DNA from: Candidatus Cloacimonadota bacterium
Lineage (GTDB): Bacteria; Cloacimonadota; Cloacimonadia; Cloacimonadales; JAQVBK01
DNA: 36,379 bases
Reading direction: 5' to 3'
Assembly: GCA_028690365.1 (NCBI GenBank)
Contig: JAQVBK010000006.1
Location: forward strand, 1 to 36,379
The position numbers and the translations under genes were made by a program. Positions 4,392 through 36,379 of the stretch are shown here, in pieces. Within the stretch, counting starts at the first letter, position 1; every line of letters begins with the position of its first letter. The notes under the pieces were generated by a model. That model saw nothing but the letters and a program-made list of their open reading frames with translations, made no database searches and was not told the origin of the DNA.

Positions 4392-7300
4392 ATGATCAAA
4401 TACAAATCTGTACTGGGGAATTTCAGAAGAGATGATATAATTGAAAAAATTTTGCAAAATTTACAGATTGATGAGAGTAGAATTATTGAAATTACCGGAA
4501 CTTCGGGAACAGGGAAAACTCATCTTTATAGAAATTTGCGAGAAGAACTAAAAAGACAGAAAATTGAGTGTTTGCGCTTTTTCCCTCGTCAGTTTAAGTT
4601 TAACAATTTTGCTCTACTGTTGGAAATACTTTGTGGTGTTAAGAAACAAGAATTGATAAAATATGCAGAAAAAGCACAAATCATGAAAGTCGATATGAAA
4701 TATGATTTTTTCTACTTTCTCACCGAAGCACTTTCTCAGGAGAAACGTTTACAGTCAAAATTGGTGATAGTTGATGACTTCGATTTACTTGACCAATATA
4801 CTAAAGATTTTGTTCAATATATATGTAATTACGATAAATCATTCAATATAAAATTCGTGGTTTTTAATACCAAGGAGATGTTCGCTAATTCTATTAAAAT
4901 TAAAATCGATTATTTAAGTCACGAAGAGATAAGCTCAATTATTTCCGGTATAAATCTACAGGGAGATCTAAACAAAGATGTATCTGCCGATATTTTGCAA
5001 AACATAACGGGAGGAAATGTATATCTTCTGGAGTCTCTGTTACGGACTATTGCAGGTAAGAATGATTATAATCTGACTGATTATTTCGAAGTGAAAATTA
5101 CTGTGTCGGGACTCTACGAAGAAAAACTTAATGAGATATCTGATGACTTAAAACAGATTATGTGTGCAATATATCTTCTGGAAGATCAAGCCGATGTGAA
5201 CAATATCAATATAATTCTGCAGAAAGAAATATCTTTGGATAAATTTGACCAATTAGTGGAAGAAGGTTTAATTTATTTCGATACCAACCATTATCGAATT
5301 GCTAAACATACTAGTTTTCAGGTCTACCTGACAAAATTCAGGAAAAAGGATTTGTGTAAGCTCTATAAACAAGCAATGGCTCTTTCTGAATTAGTTAGTT
5401 GTTTAAAGCAGCCAAAGTATTACTATGATCTGGATATTTATGATGAAGAAGTTTATTCAGAAATTGAGAGAGAACTTTTGCTGCTGAAAGATTTTGAAAA
5501 TCTACAATTGGTTTATTCAAAAATGCTTGAGATGGAGAATAATAGCCGCAAAAAGGCAAAAATCTTTGAAAAAATGGGGATTGCCTACGAAAAACTCAAC
5601 AATATCGAAGCTGCTGCTGAATTTTTTAGACAAGCTCTAAAGATAACTTCGGAGTATGGATTGCCGGTAGAGGAAATTATCTATCATCTTGTCACTGATT
5701 TAAATTCCATAAATTCGCACACTTTTGCATTAGAAATTATTAGAAAATATTCCCCTGAATCAATAGACTATTACTGGAAATGCAGGATAATAATGCAAAA
5801 AGCTCAGATACTTCTTGATTTGGAAAATATTGAAGAAGGAATGAGCGAGCTTGATAAGTTAGCTACTCAGATTAGAGATATTGAGAACGAAAGAGACCGA
5901 ATATTCATTTCTGCTGAGAGAAAAAGACTTCTGGGCAAGTTCAACTATTTTCAAAACAATATGAATCTTGCTGACGAGAACTTTAAAGAAGCTGAAAAGC
6001 TTTATAGCTCAATAGACGATTATTCCGGAATTGCAGCAGTTGCCAACAATCTTGGAGTAGTTGTAATGTCTCATGGTGATTGGAAAGAAGCAGAAAGGTT
6101 CTTTTTAAAAAGCATAGAATTTGAAAAAAAAGTATACAATCAGAATGGAATATCAGTTTGCTATAACAATCTTGGTGGTTTGATGTGTGATATGGGAGAG
6201 CTCACTAAATCCCTTTACTATCTTAATGAAGCTCTAAAGATTCAGAGTATGTTTAATGATAGATATAAAATTACTTTCATTTATCATAATATTGGTGTTA
6301 CCTGTATGGAAAATGGTATGTACAGAGACGCCGAGAATGCTTTTAAAAATGCTTTAGAGATATCTCTGAGTTTTAATTTGTACAGAAATATTGTCGCATC
6401 CTATTATCATCTTGGAGCATTAAACTTTAAAACCGGCAAATGGAAAAAAGCGATTGATTATTATGAACTGGCTATAGCAAAATCTCAGGAGAACAATTTC
6501 CTGGAAGGGATGTGCAAGGCTTACAATAACCTTGGCGAGCTTTATGAGAAGCGAAGCGAATATAATCTTGCTTATGACCTTTATTTCAAAGGAGTAGAAA
6601 TTCTGCCTGATGTTAAGGATGATTTTCTCAAAGCAGAGCTTTATGGCAATCTGGGTAGTGTTCTTACTCATCTACATAATTATGGCGAAGCTTATCCTTA
6701 TTTGGTCGAAAGTTATGATTATTTTAAAAGTCTCGATGCAAAAGATAAAATCATTGAGGCAAATCAAAAATATGCTTTTTATTTCATCCAAACACGAAAT
6801 TTTGAAAGTGCTGCATACTATATAAACTCCGCAATAAAAACAGCCAAAGAACTGAAAATGGAGTTTGAATTAGGTAAGGCTTATTACATAAGGTCTTTCC
6901 TACAAAGTTCCAAAAATGAGGCAATTAATGATATCAAGTTGGCAATAGAACTATTTATAAAAACAAATAATAATTTTGAGCTGGCTTTAACTAATTATCA
7001 CTATGCTAATCTTTTGGCAGAGGGAGAAGATACATGGGAACAAGCACTTCAAATTCTTTCTGAGAATAAAAAAATAATCAAGGAATTTGATTCAATTAGT
7101 CTCCTGGAAAAAAATGATTACTTGATAAACAAAATCACCAAGGATAGATCTGTAGAGTTAAAAGAATCAAAGTATCATGAATCACTTCTCAGTAAATTTT
7201 ATGAGATAACTGAGAAATTAAATCTGATAAACGATTTTGATAATTTGCTGGTTGCTTCGCTTGACTTACTGGTAGAAATTTCAGAATCAGACGGTGGAAT

Positions 7301-8648
7301 ATTGTGCCTTTACAATCTAAGAGATGCCGGTAATAATTGGGAATATAAAATTTTCAACTCTTTTTCTGAACAACAGGAAGATGCTGATGAATTTTTCAAC
7401 GTTATTACCGAAACTTTTGAAAACAATAAGACATTAAATTATCAACAACCTCATTTTGCAGCGAATTACAATAGCATAATTAGTTTTCCTCTTAGAATAA
7501 GAAACAAGACTCAGGGGGTTATTTTACTCTTTTGTAAACATGGCAATCATTATTTTACCAAGAAGATTATCAATCTTATTAGTGCTCTTTGCAATCAGGT
7601 TATTGTGACAATAGAAAATCTAAGACAATGCAATCTGGAGAAATCTCATGCAATAATCAGAGAAGAATTACTTACAGCATCAAATTTTACTAATATTGTC
7701 GGTAAGAGCAGCAGAATTGAACGAATATTTGAGTTGATTGAAAAGATTAAAGATACTCCTACTACTGTATTGATTGAGGGAGAAAGCGGGACAGGTAAAG
7801 AACTTATCGCCAGGGCAATTCATTTTAACAGTAACAGAAAAAATAAAAAATTTGTTGCCCAATACTGCGGAGCTTTACCGGAGACCCTTCTGGAAAGCGA
7901 GTTATTCGGTCATGTTAAAGGCTCTTTCACCGGAGCTGCCTATGATAAAAAAGGGTTGTTCGAGATTGCGGACGGAGGAACCTTCTTTTTGGATGAAATC
8001 GGAGACATAAGTCTTTCTATTCAAGCAAAACTGTTACGATTTCTTCAGGAAGGAGAGATAAAAAGAGTAGGTTCAACTAAAACTAATAAAGTAGATGTAC
8101 GGGTTATTTGTGCTACCAATGTATCTCTGAAACAAAAAGTAGAAAAGGGCGAATTCAGATTAGACTTGTATTACCGTCTGAATGTAATAAAAATTGATAT
8201 GCCGTCACTTAAGGAACGTAAATCAGACATACCGCTTCTTGCTATACACTTTCTCGATAAATACAATAAGCGAGTTATGAAAGATATTAAAGGTATAACT
8301 GATGAAACTATGAAACATCTGGTCAGATGTGATTGGCCCGGCAATGTCAGACAACTTGAAAACGAAATTGAAAGAGCTGTTACTCTGGCAGAACCCAATT
8401 CATTTATCAGACCTGTAGACTTATCAGAAGAAGTATTTAAACTGGCTCAGCAAAAAGAAACTATTGATATTCTGGAAGTAGTTCCTTTGAAGGATGCTTT
8501 GGAAAAACTTGAAATTCAAATGATAAATGATGCTTTGGAAAGATCTGGCTGGAATCAGACCAGAGCTGCAAAAGAACTTGGTTTGAGTAGGCAGGGACTT
8601 ATAAAAAAAATGAAGAGATACGGATTCGATAAGATAGATGAAAGCTGA
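4392..8648 (+). CDS. Sigma-54-dependent activator with N-terminal ATPase, TPR and GAF domains
   Basis: A very large (1418-residue) bacterial enhancer-binding protein. In order: an N-terminal P-loop ATPase (GTSGTGKT at 36-43, with VIVDDFD as probable Walker B), of the AAA/STAND type; TPR-like helical repeats from about 400 to 900 (recurring patterns such as YNNLGELYEK and YHNIGVTCME); a GAF-like domain around 940-1075; a sigma-54 AAA+ domain with GESGTGKE near 1130, the sigma-54 contact loop GSFTGA and GGTFFLDEIGD; and a Fis-type helix-turn-helix at the C-terminus (GWNQTRAAKELGLSRQGL). GGGAG precedes the ATG. The last 11 bp overlap dinG. It probably activates sigma-54 promoters in response to an unknown ligand or partner protein. 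Domain calls in the central and C-terminal parts are firm; targets are unknown. Confidence 0.93.
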   Translation: MIKYKSVLGNFRRDDIIEKILQNLQIDESRIIEITGTSGTGKTHLYRNLREELKRQKIECLRFFPRQFKFNNFALLLEILCGVKKQELIKYAEKAQIMKVDMKYDFFYFLTEALSQEKRLQSKLVIVDDFDLLDQYTKDFVQYICNYDKSFNIKFVVFNTKEMFANSIKIKIDYLSHEEISSIISGINLQGDLNKDVSADILQNITGGNVYLLESLLRTIAGKNDYNLTDYFEVKITVSGLYEEKLNEISDDLKQIMCAIYLLEDQADVNNINIILQKEISLDKFDQLVEEGLIYFDTNHYRIAKHTSFQVYLTKFRKKDLCKLYKQAMALSELVSCLKQPKYYYDLDIYDEEVYSEIERELLLLKDFENLQLVYSKMLEMENNSRKKAKIFEKMGIAYEKLNNIEAAAEFFRQALKITSEYGLPVEEIIYHLVTDLNSINSHTFALEIIRKYSPESIDYYWKCRIIMQKAQILLDLENIEEGMSELDKLATQIRDIENERDRIFISAERKRLLGKFNYFQNNMNLADENFKEAEKLYSSIDDYSGIAAVANNLGVVVMSHGDWKEAERFFLKSIEFEKKVYNQNGISVCYNNLGGLMCDMGELTKSLYYLNEALKIQSMFNDRYKITFIYHNIGVTCMENGMYRDAENAFKNALEISLSFNLYRNIVASYYHLGALNFKTGKWKKAIDYYELAIAKSQENNFLEGMCKAYNNLGELYEKRSEYNLAYDLYFKGVEILPDVKDDFLKAELYGNLGSVLTHLHNYGEAYPYLVESYDYFKSLDAKDKIIEANQKYAFYFIQTRNFESAAYYINSAIKTAKELKMEFELGKAYYIRSFLQSSKNEAINDIKLAIELFIKTNNNFELALTNYHYANLLAEGEDTWEQALQILSENKKIIKEFDSISLLEKNDYLINKITKDRSVELKESKYHESLLSKFYEITEKLNLINDFDNLLVASLDLLVEISESDGGILCLYNLRDAGNNWEYKIFNSFSEQQEDADEFFNVITETFENNKTLNYQQPHFAANYNSIISFPLRIRNKTQGVILLFCKHGNHYFTKKIINLISALCNQVIVTIENLRQCNLEKSHAIIREELLTASNFTNIVGKSSRIERIFELIEKIKDTPTTVLIEGESGTGKELIARAIHFNSNRKNKKFVAQYCGALPETLLESELFGHVKGSFTGAAYDKKGLFEIADGGTFFLDEIGDISLSIQAKLLRFLQEGEIKRVGSTKTNKVDVRVICATNVSLKQKVEKGEFRLDLYYRLNVIKIDMPSLKERKSDIPLLAIHFLDKYNKRVMKDIKGITDETMKHLVRCDWPGNVRQLENEIERAVTLAEPNSFIRPVDLSEEVFKLAQQKETIDILEVVPLKDALEKLEIQMINDALERSGWNQTRAAKELGLSRQGLIKKMKRYGFDKIDES

Positions 8649-11472
8649 CTTATTTGATTTTATTGCTTTTGATACTGAAACTACCGGTTTAAATCCAAGA
8701 GATAATGAAATAATTGAAATTGGTGCGGTTAAGTATAAAGCAGGGATTGAGGTGGAGAGATTCTCGGCTTTTATAAAACCAAAAGGTTTAGTCCCAAATT
8801 TTATAAAACAACTGACTCACATTACTGATAAGGATTTACAATCCGGTCAACCAATTGAGAAAGTTCTGCCCGAATTCAAAGAATTTTTGGGTAATAGCTT
8901 GCTGGTTGGGCATAATATCGGCTTCGATATTTCTTTTATCAATAACCAAATGGAAAAGTGCGGTTTCCCTTTACTAGCTAATCAGCAGATGGATACGGTT
9001 GAAATCAGCAGAATTTATCTACCTTTTATTGCTAATCACAAATTGGAAACTGTAGCCGGTTTTTTCAATATTACCAATGAATCTGCTCACAGAGCAATTC
9101 ATGATGCTGAAACAACAGCATTGATTTTTAGAAAACTTATTGATTTCATCCTTTCAGAAGTTCCATTGAAGATAAATGAAAACCTCTTAATGATTTCTGC
9201 CAATGCTCTTCTGAGAAATGAAACAGACCTTTTCTTTAAAAATATTGTCAACCATCAGAGAAGATACGCATTGGTTGAAAACAGAGATTACAGAATTGAT
9301 AAGTATTTTACTCATTACAATGTCATCAGCCATGAACCTGAGAGCAAAAAAGATTATACAATTGACGACATTTTTGCCGGTGATGGAGTATTCAGTAATC
9401 ATTTTCCTCAATATGAAATAAGACAGGGACAGATTGATATGGCTCATGCTGTTTCCGAAGCATTTGAATTAAAGCATTTCTTACTTGTTGAAGCCGGAAC
9501 CGGAGTGGGAAAATCTTTTGCTTATCTGATTCCTTCAATAATGTTTAGTAATAAAAATGACAGCCGTGTTATTCTTTCAACGAACACCAAGAATTTACAG
9601 GAACAGCTCTTCAACAAAGATCTACCAGCAATAAGAGATTGTACTGGAATGAAATTCTGTGCAGTAATATTAAAGGGAAGAGAGAACTATATCTGTGAAA
9701 AGAAATGGCTGGAAGTAAATTTTGATATTCCGGGATCGCTAACTCCTCAGGAAACTACAGAATTATTGAATCTGGTTTTATGGAAAGAATATACGAAAAC
9801 CGGAGATATTGAAGATAACTCTTCTTTTTCAAAAAACACTGCTTATGGTCTTTGGAAAAAAGTTGCCGCAGACAGACATTTCTGCAGCGGTAAGAAATGT
9901 CCTCATTTTCAGCATTGTTATCTGATGAACATAAGGAAAAGAGCGGAGCATGCGAATCTGGTGATAGTGAATCACTCCTTATTGATTATGGATATGGCGG
10001 CTGAGAACATAACTCTCGGAGAATATGATTACCTCGTAATTGATGAAGCTCACAATATTCCTAATATAGCGTCTACTCATTTTGGATTATCGCTTGGGTT
10101 TGCTGACATAACAAATCTTTTCACCAGAATCTTCAACACACGAGGTCAGTATCAGAGTGGAGTTATTCCGACGATAAGAGCTTCAATAACAAAATCGATG
10201 CTCAATGAACTTTTAAAAAGTAATGTTATATCTCTAACTGAACAAATAGTCAGCTTTATAGAAAAATCGCAAGAAACTTATCGAAACTTCTTCCGGTTGA
10301 TTTCTTCCAAGGTGACTGCAGAAGGTTCATACAACAAACTTCGCTTGAAAAATATCGATAATTTTGATTTTCTGAAACCGACTCTTATTCAATTTTCTAC
10401 AGAGTGGCAAAATCTTATTGAATTATTTAGCAGATTGTTTAATTCATACAATTCGATGGACGAGAAAATCGTTACGAATTTTCAAACAAACTCAGACAAT
10501 ATTTCTGCAATAAATCAATCACTTGAAGAAATAGACAAGGTTTTCTCGATATTAACTCAACCTGACTTCAAGGCGAATGCGTACTGGCTGTCAACTTTTG
10601 CAGCTTCCGATGACAATTTTCCTTCAGGGACAATAAATTTTGCTCCTCTGGAAATTGGACAATACTTTGAAAACTTCCTGTATAACAATGTTAAATCTGT
10701 AATTTTTACTTCTGCAACTGTTGCTCTGAGAGGCAAATTCAAATTCTATTCATCACGAATGGGTTTAGATTTAATCCATAGCCAAAAGATTGAAGAATTA
10801 GTAGTTCCTTCACCATTTGATTTCGAAAAACAATCCAAAGTATTGATAGCCTCTTTTCTACCGCTGCCTTCAGACAAAAAATATTTTCCTCTGCAGTCTT
10901 TAACGCTGCTGAAAAATGTCATAAAGTCTACGGATAAAGGTACTATGGTGTTATTTACTTCATATGCAGATCTGAATTTTATCTATGATGCATTATCTGA
11001 TGAAATGGCTAATTCCAATATTCCTCTTTTGGCACAAGGGAAAAGCGGGAGTAGAAGCAATATCCTGAGAGAATTCAAAGAACATGGCAAATCTGTTTTA
11101 CTTGGCACAAATTCTTTTTGGGAAGGGATTGATATAAAAGGAGATTCTCTTTCTCTGCTGGTTATTTACAAACTTCCATTTTCTGTTCCGTCTGAGCCTA
11201 TTGTAGAAGCTTATATCGAAAAATTGGAACAAGAAGGCAAAGACTCTTTTAATCACTACATGCTACCTACTGCCTTATTGAAATTTAAACAGGGATTCGG
11301 ACGATTGATAAGAAGTACCAGCGATTCGGGAATTGTCATTGTTCTGGATAATCGAATGCATAAGAAACAGTATGGACAGTATTTTAAGAGTATTTTACCG
11401 GTAAGAAGTGAAAATGTTGATTCTGAAGCTGTTTTAATGAATCAGATTTCAAGATGGTTCAGTAAAGTCTAA
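8638..11472 (+). CDS. dinG: DinG-type DNA helicase fused to a DnaQ-like 3'-5' exonuclease
   Basis: A 944-residue protein joining a DEDDh exonuclease (Asp12/Glu14 in FDTETTG, GHNIGFD, then HRAIHDAETT) to an XPD/DinG-type superfamily 2 helicase. Helicase signatures are an RQGQ Q-motif, Walker A EAGTGVGKS near 287, DEAH near 469, FTSAT, SFWEGIDIKG and QGFGRLIR. Four cysteines consistent with a 4Fe-4S cluster are visible (ENYIC, then C-x4-C-x5-C in CSGKKCPHFQHC), the same spacing as in E. coli DinG. DinG proteins unwind D-loops, R-loops and forked DNA. The gene starts inside the end of the regulator gene and ends tail-to-tail against the next minus-strand gene with no gap. Confidence 0.93.
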   Translation: MKADLFDFIAFDTETTGLNPRDNEIIEIGAVKYKAGIEVERFSAFIKPKGLVPNFIKQLTHITDKDLQSGQPIEKVLPEFKEFLGNSLLVGHNIGFDISFINNQMEKCGFPLLANQQMDTVEISRIYLPFIANHKLETVAGFFNITNESAHRAIHDAETTALIFRKLIDFILSEVPLKINENLLMISANALLRNETDLFFKNIVNHQRRYALVENRDYRIDKYFTHYNVISHEPESKKDYTIDDIFAGDGVFSNHFPQYEIRQGQIDMAHAVSEAFELKHFLLVEAGTGVGKSFAYLIPSIMFSNKNDSRVILSTNTKNLQEQLFNKDLPAIRDCTGMKFCAVILKGRENYICEKKWLEVNFDIPGSLTPQETTELLNLVLWKEYTKTGDIEDNSSFSKNTAYGLWKKVAADRHFCSGKKCPHFQHCYLMNIRKRAEHANLVIVNHSLLIMDMAAENITLGEYDYLVIDEAHNIPNIASTHFGLSLGFADITNLFTRIFNTRGQYQSGVIPTIRASITKSMLNELLKSNVISLTEQIVSFIEKSQETYRNFFRLISSKVTAEGSYNKLRLKNIDNFDFLKPTLIQFSTEWQNLIELFSRLFNSYNSMDEKIVTNFQTNSDNISAINQSLEEIDKVFSILTQPDFKANAYWLSTFAASDDNFPSGTINFAPLEIGQYFENFLYNNVKSVIFTSATVALRGKFKFYSSRMGLDLIHSQKIEELVVPSPFDFEKQSKVLIASFLPLPSDKKYFPLQSLTLLKNVIKSTDKGTMVLFTSYADLNFIYDALSDEMANSNIPLLAQGKSGSRSNILREFKEHGKSVLLGTNSFWEGIDIKGDSLSLLVIYKLPFSVPSEPIVEAYIEKLEQEGKDSFNHYMLPTALLKFKQGFGRLIRSTSDSGIVIVLDNRMHKKQYGQYFKSILPVRSENVDSEAVLMNQISRWFSKV

Positions 11473-33333: not shown

Positions 33334-35325
33334 TTATTCTGATATGAGAATGTTTTCTTCTCCTTCAGTGACGAGTTTGATCATATATTCTGCGGATTCA
33401 TGTAAATCTCCGGTTGGAAATTGAAGAACTTGCTGGAACAATGTTACAGCTTCATCTGGATTGTTAAGTTCTTCAGCGTAAATAAATGCTTTCATGAAAA
33501 GTGCCTTGTAATCGTCTTTATTGTTTTTGTAAACATCGATGATTTGATTGTAGTAATCAACTGCATTTTTGAATCGTTTTTTGAGTTGAGATTCTTCGGC
33601 AAGTTCAAAAAGTTCTTCAGCAGATAAACTGGTTTTAAGTCTCTCAGAAAAAATAGTGATTTTGTATTCAGCAAACAACTCTTCTTTTTTCTGTTCAAAG
33701 GCTTCTTTTTGTTTCTCTCTTTTAACTATATCTAATATGGAATTTTTAACTTCACTCAGAGGAATATGACTTCCGGGGGTTTCACTTAAGATTCTGACAA
33801 AAACAAATTCGTTTTTTGTGTTTCTGGTAATCTCAGAAAGATTGCCAACTTCAGTATTCCAGATAATCTGCGATAATTCATCATCTTTACCTATGCCGGG
33901 AATTACTCCATTATTGAATACTTTATCAATTGTGCTTTTATAGTTAGGCAAGGCAGATTCTGTGATTATCTTGTCCAGTTCATCAAAATTGTTCTTCTTT
34001 AAAGCTTTAGCAGCTGCTTTGAGACTTCGTTTAGCAATTTTTTCTGTTTCAAAAGCAAATAACTGAACTGAACGCTCTGTCTTTGTTTCATATTTCTCAA
34101 GATTTTCATTGTAATAATTATTAACATCATCGTCAGTTATCTCAATCAAGTCGATAACTGTTTCCTTATATGCAGTTCGTATCAAAACTGATTTTCGTGC
34201 ATGTTTAACTTCAAACATATTGTCAATTTCCGATTTATATTTCTTTGTCTGTGAGTCTATATATAGAAGTCTATTGTCAATAACGGATTGCCAATATTGA
34301 GTGTTGTTGTCAGGGTTCTTTAGTCCTGCTGCCTGCTGGGAGGTAATCTGGGAAAGAAAATCGATATAATCAGCTACTGTAAGCTTTAGTACCGGACTCT
34401 TGCTATTAATAATATGTTTATCCATAATATCTATATATGAAAGACTGTCATCAAAGTTTACGCTAACTAATAATTCGTTGTCAAAAACTACATTGTATTT
34501 TTCTTTAAGTTCGGCTTGTTTTTTGTCGTTCAACTCTTTTTCTTTTTGAGGTAATAGAGATGCTGTTATCTCTTCTCTAATTTCATCTAAAGGTCTGATG
34601 TATTCAGGCTTGAGTTGAGTAACAATAAAGAAATGTATACCTGATTCAGTTGTTATGGGACCATTGAAGATTGCTACATCAGCTTCCAATATTCTTTTTT
34701 CAAGTTCAGGATCTTTTCCTATCAGTGGAATGTATCCCTCACCTTTTATGTTTCGTATTTCACCTTTCTTATTTTTTGAAGATGCATGATTTGAATATTT
34801 TTCTACCAAAGCATCAAAGTCATTGTTGTCGGCGTATTCCTGGATAATTGTGTCGACTAATCCTTCATCACTGATTCTTAAGTACTTTATATCAGTGCTT
34901 GATTTAACTCTGAATTTTTCTTTGTTTTCATTGTAATAATCGGAGAGTTCTTTTTCAGAAATTGCAGCTTTATCTGTAACTTCTCTTTTAAGATACTCCT
35001 GTGCATAATAGGGGATTACTGTGTTCTGGATAATTTCCTGAATCAATGGGCGATCTTCGATCTTCATTTCCAAAGCTTTCAGATAAAAAGCTTCTTCAAT
35101 TGCCATGTTTTCAAGAAGCTTTATTTGTGACTCCATGGTTTGATACTGGCTCCTATACATCTGAGGTATTTTCGATAGTCTTGTATCCAGGTCTTCTCTT
35201 GTTATGCCTGAATTGCCGATTTCTACAAGATATTCCGTACTGTTTTCAGAGGCGAAAAGAAAAAGATTAAATTGAAAAAATGTTAAGATTAACATTGTGG
35301 TTAAAAGATAGTTTTTTGACTTCAT
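33334..35325 (-). CDS. Periplasmic parvulin-type peptidyl-prolyl isomerase/chaperone
   Basis: A 663-residue SurA/PrsA/PpiD-like folding factor. A signal peptide (about 1-26, ending FLFAS) leads to an N-terminal chaperone helix region with ITREDLDTRLSKIP. A first parvulin-like domain spans about 120-260 (DFDALVEKYSNHASSKNKKGEI, VAIFNGPITTESGIHFFIVTQL). A second spans about 410-540 (NNFDELDKIITESAL, VGNLSEITRNTKNEFVFVRIL). A short C-terminal helical TPR-like part follows (FKNAVDYYNQIIDVY). It would help outer-membrane and secreted proteins fold in the periplasm. It is the first gene of its strand group; AAGGAG precedes the ATG. Whether both parvulin domains are active is unclear. Confidence 0.9.
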   Translation of the reverse strand: MKSKNYLLTTMLILTFFQFNLFLFASENSTEYLVEIGNSGITREDLDTRLSKIPQMYRSQYQTMESQIKLLENMAIEEAFYLKALEMKIEDRPLIQEIIQNTVIPYYAQEYLKREVTDKAAISEKELSDYYNENKEKFRVKSSTDIKYLRISDEGLVDTIIQEYADNNDFDALVEKYSNHASSKNKKGEIRNIKGEGYIPLIGKDPELEKRILEADVAIFNGPITTESGIHFFIVTQLKPEYIRPLDEIREEITASLLPQKEKELNDKKQAELKEKYNVVFDNELLVSVNFDDSLSYIDIMDKHIINSKSPVLKLTVADYIDFLSQITSQQAAGLKNPDNNTQYWQSVIDNRLLYIDSQTKKYKSEIDNMFEVKHARKSVLIRTAYKETVIDLIEITDDDVNNYYNENLEKYETKTERSVQLFAFETEKIAKRSLKAAAKALKKNNFDELDKIITESALPNYKSTIDKVFNNGVIPGIGKDDELSQIIWNTEVGNLSEITRNTKNEFVFVRILSETPGSHIPLSEVKNSILDIVKREKQKEAFEQKKEELFAEYKITIFSERLKTSLSAEELFELAEESQLKKRFKNAVDYYNQIIDVYKNNKDDYKALFMKAFIYAEELNNPDEAVTLFQQVLQFPTGDLHESAEYMIKLVTEGEENILISE

Positions 35326-35371: not shown

Positions 35372-35390
35372 TTGACTACTTATGAGTCAA
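35372..35390. promoter_or_regulatory. Dyad upstream of the pilin promoter, candidate activator site
   Basis: TTGACT-ACTTATG-AGTCAA is a perfect 6-bp inverted repeat with a 7-bp centre. Relative to the start site predicted from the sigma-54 element it lies at about -122 to -104, the usual position for an enhancer-binding protein. It could also serve the divergent chaperone gene. Confidence 0.4.
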
Positions 35391-35467
35391 GAAATTAAAA
35401 GACGCACTGATTACATGAACCAAATAATATGTATAAAGTTTCAAAAGATTTGGAGAAATGTTTAATT

Positions 35468-35483
35468 TGGAATGTAATTTGCT
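35468..35483 (+). promoter_or_regulatory. pilA: Sigma-54 (-24/-12) promoter of the pilin gene
   Basis: TGGAATGTAATTTGCT matches the sigma-54 consensus TGGCACG-N4-TTGCW with the invariant GG and GC at exactly the right spacing. Transcription would start near 35494, about 40 bp before the pilin ATG. Sigma-54 control of pilin genes through PilR-type activators is well established in other bacteria. Confidence 0.65.
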
Positions 35484-35534
35484 TCAAAAAAGTCATCATC
35501 AAAAAATAGATGAACAAAGAACGTAGGAGGAGAA

Positions 35535-35960
35535 ATGTTTAAAAGTTTAAACAACCAAAAGGGTTTTACCCTCGTCGAAATTCTTGTGGTGGTAATTATT
35601 GTGGCTATCTTGGCAGCAATAGCAGTACCAACTTACATGAGGTATGTGGAACAGGCCAGATCTTCTGAAGCTCAGGCTGCATTAAGTAGTATCAGAACAG
35701 CATTTAGAATTTACAGACAGACTTATGGAACTACTGAAGGTTATCAAGTTGAAGATGCTCTTAAGGATGCAAAATTAGGAAATGCAACTGAAAAGAGATG
35801 GACATTTGAAGCAATTGGCAATCCACCTAACAGATACGTGGCAACTTCTACTGCAGATTTTCCAGCCGGTGAAGGCAAACAAGTAATGTATGATGAAAAG
35901 GAAGCTAAATTCCATGGTTATGGAATTGATGAATGGACTGACGAACAGGAAGATTTTTAA
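35535..35960 (+). CDS. pilA: Type IV major pilin-like protein
   Basis: A 141-residue prepilin. A short basic leader (MFKSLNNQKG) is followed by the cleavage site G-FTLVE with Glu at mature position 5, and the conserved N-terminal helix (ILVVVIIVAILAAIAVPTYMRYVEQAR). The mature globular part is small, acidic at the end (DEWTDEQEDF) and has no cysteines, so no disulfide loop. It could be a type IV pilin or a pseudopilin of a type II-like secretion system; the adjacent pilT favours a pilus. AGGAGGAG lies just before the ATG, with a sigma-54 element upstream. Confidence 0.92.
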   Translation: MFKSLNNQKGFTLVEILVVVIIVAILAAIAVPTYMRYVEQARSSEAQAALSSIRTAFRIYRQTYGTTEGYQVEDALKDAKLGNATEKRWTFEAIGNPPNRYVATSTADFPAGEGKQVMYDEKEAKFHGYGIDEWTDEQEDF

Positions 35961-35975
35961 TAATCGGAGGCTGGT

Positions 35976-36379
35976 TTGACAATACAAGATCTACTAAGAT
36001 TTACTTCTGATGCGGGAGCTTCTGATTTGCACGTAAGTGCCGGATCATATCCGATGATTCGTGTACATGGTCAGATGAAAAGATTAAATCTTCCCAAAAT
36101 GAATGAGTCAGAAGTAAGAGACCTCGTTTTCAGTGTAATGAACGAGTCACAACGAGAACTCTTTATAAAAGAGCTCGAGATAGATTTTTCCACCAAACTA
36201 AGCAATGATGTTCGTTTCCGAGTTAATGCCTTTCATCAGGTTAATGGAATAGGTGTAGCATTTAGAGTTATTCCTAATGAAATTAAAAGTTTTGAAGAGC
36301 TTCGTCTTCCTGACATTTTAAGAAGACTTGCCTTGAAAGACAAAGGATTGATTTTGGTAACTGGCCCCACCGGTAGTGG
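35976..36379 (+). CDS. pilT: Type IV pilus retraction ATPase PilT, 3' end outside window
   Basis: This frame is open from a TTG at 35976 to the window edge (134 codons) and is absent from the ORF track because it has no stop. GGAGG lies 5 bp before the TTG. The protein starts with the PilT-type N-terminal domain (TIQDLLRFTSDAGASDLHVSAG, PMIRVHGQMKRLNLP, DFSTKLSNDVRFRVNAF) and is cut within Walker A (VTGPTGSG). The short N-terminus and ASDLH motif point to PilT/PilU rather than PilB. It would drive pilus retraction and twitching. It lies 15 bp after the pilin gene, so the two are probably cotranscribed. Confidence 0.93.
   Translation, partial: MTIQDLLRFTSDAGASDLHVSAGSYPMIRVHGQMKRLNLPKMNESEVRDLVFSVMNESQRELFIKELEIDFSTKLSNDVRFRVNAFHQVNGIGVAFRVIPNEIKSFEELRLPDILRRLALKDKGLILVTGPTGS

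Follow-up and report, generated by a model that had tools for sequence, protein, structure and literature searches.

A conserved sigma-54 promoter element at the head of the Cloacimonadales type IV pilus operon and a candidate STAND-TPR-GAF activator

The DNA that precedes the major pilin gene pilA in the window, the whole stretch of 36,379 nucleotides analysed here, contains what is strongly supported as a real sigma-54 promoter element, conserved across the order Cloacimonadales. In the reading we prefer, to which we give a probability of about 0.62, this element would be the promoter of the entire pil operon, its most likely activator would be the large protein encoded near the other end of the window, and the arms of an upstream dyad would be TTGAC -35 elements (Table 1). 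The window is one of 449 contigs in a metagenome-assembled genome (MAG) of 3.6 Mb (G000), and it was compared with 59 relatives from the same order, the sole complete one being G009, a single contig of 2,246,820 bases.

Table 1. Coordinates of the features discussed, in positions of the window
Feature	Position	Strand	Remarks
Large sigma-54 activator	4392..8648	+	STAND-like NTPase, TPR array, GAF, AAA+ (GSFTGA loop), Fis-type HTH (HTH_8); proposed activator of the pil promoter
PpiC/SurA-type peptidyl-prolyl isomerase (PPIase) with TPR, divergent gene	33334..35325	-	PF13145, 77 bits
Dyad left arm, TTGACT	35372..35377	+	possible -35 of a sigma70-type TTGACT-N17-TTAAAA-G (35372-35401) towards pilA, weakly supported
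Dyad right arm and next base, CTTGACT	35385..35391	-	best read as -35 of the divergent PPIase gene, whose ATG follows after about 65 bp
Sigma-54 -24/-12 promoter, TTGGAATGTAATTTGCT	35467..35483	+	predicted +1 at about 35494
Major type IV pilin gene pilA	35535..35960	+	prepilin motif KG/FTLVE (cleavage between G and F); PF07963 N_methyl, 37.3 bits
pilT, start of the remaining pilus operon	35976..36379	+	separated from pilA by 15 bp; truncated at the contig end

The promoter element has GG at 35469-35470 and GC at 35481-35482 with 10 nt between them, as in the -24/-12 consensus, and when the 130 bp before pilA were shuffled 2000 times no equal score arose. Among the relatives we collected 52 upstream records, corresponding to 50 distinct loci given that L010/L035 and L022/L036 are identical in upstream sequence. 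A matching -24/-12 element was found in 49 of these 50 loci (51 of the 52 records), against a mean of 0.6 and a maximum of 4 for shuffled upstream regions, with its -12 C placed 29-67 bp before the pilA ATG. The only record without it, L048, comes from a genome that is 64% complete (G023), and another reading frame ends close upstream there. The sigma factor gene rpoN was detected in 57 of the 59 relatives; in the window's own genome it appears as two pieces flanking a run of N. The initial annotation had proposed a sigma-54 promoter with correct -24/-12 spacing and an alignment of pilA upstream regions as a check; both the alignment and the shuffle controls bear the promoter out, and we infer that it is in actual use.

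The pilin gene is preceded by an AGGAGG ribosome binding site at 35525-35530. Orthologs occur in 54 of the 59 relatives, the named matches being Candidatus Zophobacter franzmannii and a Candidatus Cloacimonadota bacterium. The gene order pilA-pilT-minor pilins-pilM-like-pilN/pilO-like-secretin (pilQ)-pilB-pilC recurs in the 15 relative loci read, where NCBIfam best matches in one locus (L072) name four members (pilC/GspF-, pilB-, secretin- and pilM-type) and the other names follow from position and size. Because the genes are closely spaced they would be transcribed as a single operon, and the -24/-12 element at its head probably drives the whole of it, from pilA to pilC. The pilB gene of L072 (5713-7416) encodes an MshE-type cyclic di-GMP-binding motif above the cut-off (NF053729, 59.9 bits). 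No histidine kinase/response regulator (pilRS) pair was seen in the pilus operons of the 15 relative loci, and the window holds no pilS-pilR pair either, as had been noted at the outset; the four histidine kinase/NtrC-type pairs of the genome lie elsewhere.

The perfect dyad TTGACT-N7-AGTCAA, placed by the initial annotation about 110 bp upstream of the predicted start, is indeed present at 35372-35390, with its centre 113 bp before the predicted +1 at 35494. The classic enhancer role ascribed to it there finds no such support. In shuffled copies of this intergenic region, which has 24% GC, a perfect 6-bp dyad of any kind arose in 83% of cases and one with at least two G/C per arm in 18%, so that the dyad alone is within chance expectation. 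The suggested genome-wide search returned two exact copies and 12 with at most one mismatch, compared with 32 for a reversed control pattern, which is no enrichment, and in the aligned pil upstream regions of the relatives the dyad was not seen outside this locus. Its lack of conservation, the genome counts and the shuffles together led us to reject it as a conserved enhancer. A wider search for a conserved enhancer motif upstream of the pil promoter, by k-mer and spaced-dyad counts both near and far, yielded only TTGAC across the order, with a flanked version of it in family f10. In family f8, CTTGCA recurs about 25-40 bp before the -24 (L018, L022, L025, L032, L033, L045, L051 and L054).

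It could still be that the dyad is a true enhancer, in which case control would follow the classic PilS-PilR scheme and the protein bound there would be a response regulator of NtrC/PilR type whose gene lies in another part of the genome. Its perfect 6-bp arms, its plausible distance from the +1, the histidine kinase/NtrC-type pairs that the genome carries outside the window and the enrichment of a related GAC-N8-GTC arrangement in six f10 loci speak for this; its absence from the pil promoters of other families, the counts given above and the fact that -35 usage accounts for the TTGAC arms speak against it, and we regard it as the most improbable of the alternatives considered here.

The -35 reading of the arms, preferred here, draws on the distribution of TTGAC. 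In G009 (2.0 Mb scanned) it heads the 5-mers over-represented ahead of genes, being found on the sense strand with a peak 40-80 bp before the ATG, and for this reason it fits a sigma70-type -35 element. In the G009 upstream regions (L152-L251) the -10 region that follows TTGAC looks A/T-rich, with no evident TATAAT and a G after it. Of the pil upstream regions of 49 loci, 32 contain TTGAC, against 13.8 expected, and 18 contain CTTGAC, against 2.1. On the antisense strand TTGAC was found in 13/13 loci that have a divergent gene start within about 260 bp, compared with 3/36 of the others (P = 2e-9), the close-divergent set having been assigned by hand and the related genomes not being independent. 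Homologs of the PPIase adjoin pilA in most of the relative loci read. The dyad looks like part of ordinary promoter sequence, in which the right arm would be the -35 for the divergent PPIase. What each arm does is suggested by these patterns and by a sigma70 -10 model that was built from G009 and gives weak support in G000: the -10 following the left arm towards pilA had p = 0.04 against shuffled spacers (uncorrected, one of many tests), and the weak -10 following the right arm towards the PPIase gene had p = 0.49.

The position of the right arm at the PPIase -35 would also suit an operator, bound by a repressor or dual regulator of the divergent gene and overlapping its -35. A pattern TGGAC-N8-GTCAAG, at the same place with respect to the divergent gene, recurs in three genera of f10, in six loci altogether (L021, L023, L034, L050, L052 and L053), in agreement with that possibility. 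However, these six loci are related, other families lack the pattern, and the GAC-to-GTC spacing is N8 in f10 but N9 in G000, one base apart. An operator function consequently appears unlikely, though slightly less so than an enhancer function.

Turning to the activator, the 4392-8648 product shows the features of a sigma-54 enhancer-binding protein, that is, a PF00158 domain, a GAFTGA-type loop and an HTH. A single-copy ortholog with about 50% identity is found in 55 of the 59 relatives. Of the 30 loci read, all but one carry the loop GSFTGA, the exception having GAYTGA, and the recognition helix SRQGLI is invariant among them; serine at position 2 and tyrosine at position 3 of the loop both occur in validated sigma-54 activators (PMC3162934). 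The Walker B motif is FLDE in 29 of these proteins and FLDD in the remaining one, L150, from a genome without a close pilA match (G017). An exonuclease/helicase-like gene (8638-11472) overlaps the end of the activator gene in the window, and a frame with an exonuclease motif adjoins it in many relatives.

We consider the large activator the best candidate for the pil promoter, by elimination and by conservation. The initial annotation had pointed it out within the window; its role as a possible pil partner has gained support on these two grounds, and proximity is not part of the argument. Three relatives, G009, G033 and G048, each encode two PF00158 proteins, the large activator and one other, and all three retain the pil -24/-12 element, that of G033 (L023) being off consensus (TTGGCTCGTTCCGTGCA) and that of G048 being L050. 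The other PF00158 protein is a response regulator whose loop reads GSFTSA in G009, GFDGKS in G033 and GIGGKD in G048. Changes at F3 or T4 of the loop like those in G033 and G048 are treated as inactive, and serine at position 5 as possibly functional (PMC3162934). Given the F3/T4-type changes in G033 and G048, elimination of the second protein holds there, whereas it is weakened in G009, where the serine at position 5 of GSFTSA is possibly tolerated. The elimination thus relies on two MAGs, 99% (G033) and 95% (G048) complete. In family f10 the GAFTGA loop of this response regulator (L260-L273; L202:14117-15529 in G009) is progressively altered (GSFTSA, GSFTNA, GFDGKS, GTESVH and others), and a protein with such a loop may have moved out of sigma-54 control; GAFTGA is retained in the f7 ortholog L274.

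The pil promoter might instead be driven by another activator encoded elsewhere in G000, either a response regulator, of which there are four, or a TPR-type activator, with the large activator serving only other genes. About ten other PF00158 activators are present in G000, and four relatives (G007, G017, G019 and G049) keep the large activator with no close pilA match, implying that it must serve something besides pili. In the fragmented MAG G053 the pil promoter is present and the large activator was not detected. Against this alternative, near-universality is confined to the large activator, and, judged by the loop, no other protein of G033 or G048 is sigma-54 competent. We hold it to be doubtful, although it is the strongest of the competing explanations.

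With the large activator as the preferred partner, RNA polymerase carrying RpoN would wait as a closed complex at the pil promoter until an ATP-driven activator opened it. This activator would be a one-component STAND-TPR-GAF protein and not a PilS-PilR pair. In the shared divergent region the dyad arms would serve as TTGAC -35 elements, the right arm acting on the opposite strand for the PPIase gene.

The arrangement resembles the PilS-PilR/RpoN control of pilA in Pseudomonas aeruginosa, and also in Geobacter and Dichelobacter, in having a sigma-54 -24/-12 element before the major pilin gene. It differs in that no pilRS genes lie in the pilus operons read, in that the promoter heads a whole pilus operon, and in that the candidate activator, itself near-universal, is of the one-component STAND-TPR-GAF kind. 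PilR sites have been described as TGT-N11-AGA and GTCT (PMC6058289). The large activator shares the AAA+ domain with a GAFTGA-type loop and the Fis-type HTH with type Ib sigma-54 enhancer-binding proteins, which combine other N-terminal sensor domains, a central AAA+ and a C-terminal HTH_8 (PMC3162934), but its N-terminus consists of a STAND-like NTPase, a long TPR array and a GAF domain in a protein of about 1420 aa. It scores below the NCBIfam equivalog cut-offs.

Cloacimonadota are common in anaerobic digesters. Pilus genes are reported in almost all digester Cloacimonadota, where they are expressed, and a role in electron transfer with methanogens has been suggested for the pili; the passages of this source that we found contain no promoter work (PMC13082233). 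We found no paper on the control of pilus expression in Cloacimonadota, and none of the papers listed for Cloacimonas promoters and sigma factors deals with it, as judged by title and abstract. With a conserved sigma-54 promoter and a near-universal single-copy activator, pilus control in Cloacimonadota becomes testable, and the large activator is a named candidate regulator of a kind other than PilS-PilR.

Sigma-54 has been described as a controller of the bacterial exterior (PMC3162934), and the sites in G009 are in agreement with this, since -24/-12 elements precede its pil operon as well as several genes whose products look secreted. We found no report of such control in Cloacimonadota, and PMC12316311 does not mention the group. 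In G009 16 genes pass a -24/-12 score of 11, compared with 1.9 for permuted matrices; the pil promoter has the top score (25.0), and several of the other top sites precede proteins with signal-peptide-like starts. No shared upstream motif is evident among the G009 sigma-54 sites. A broader proposal, in which a one-component STAND-TPR-GAF activator replaces PilS-PilR across Cloacimonadales, turns on the pil operon through sigma-54 and also controls secreted protease-like proteins, is put forward tentatively, at somewhat less than even odds. Sites resembling -24/-12 elements lie 43-68 bp before the G009 genes for secreted-looking proteins at 503537-504559, 733183-738636, 1801571-1804618 and 1262877-1265159, and some of these proteins resemble, by eye and not by family search, gingipain-type or C10-type extracellular proteases.
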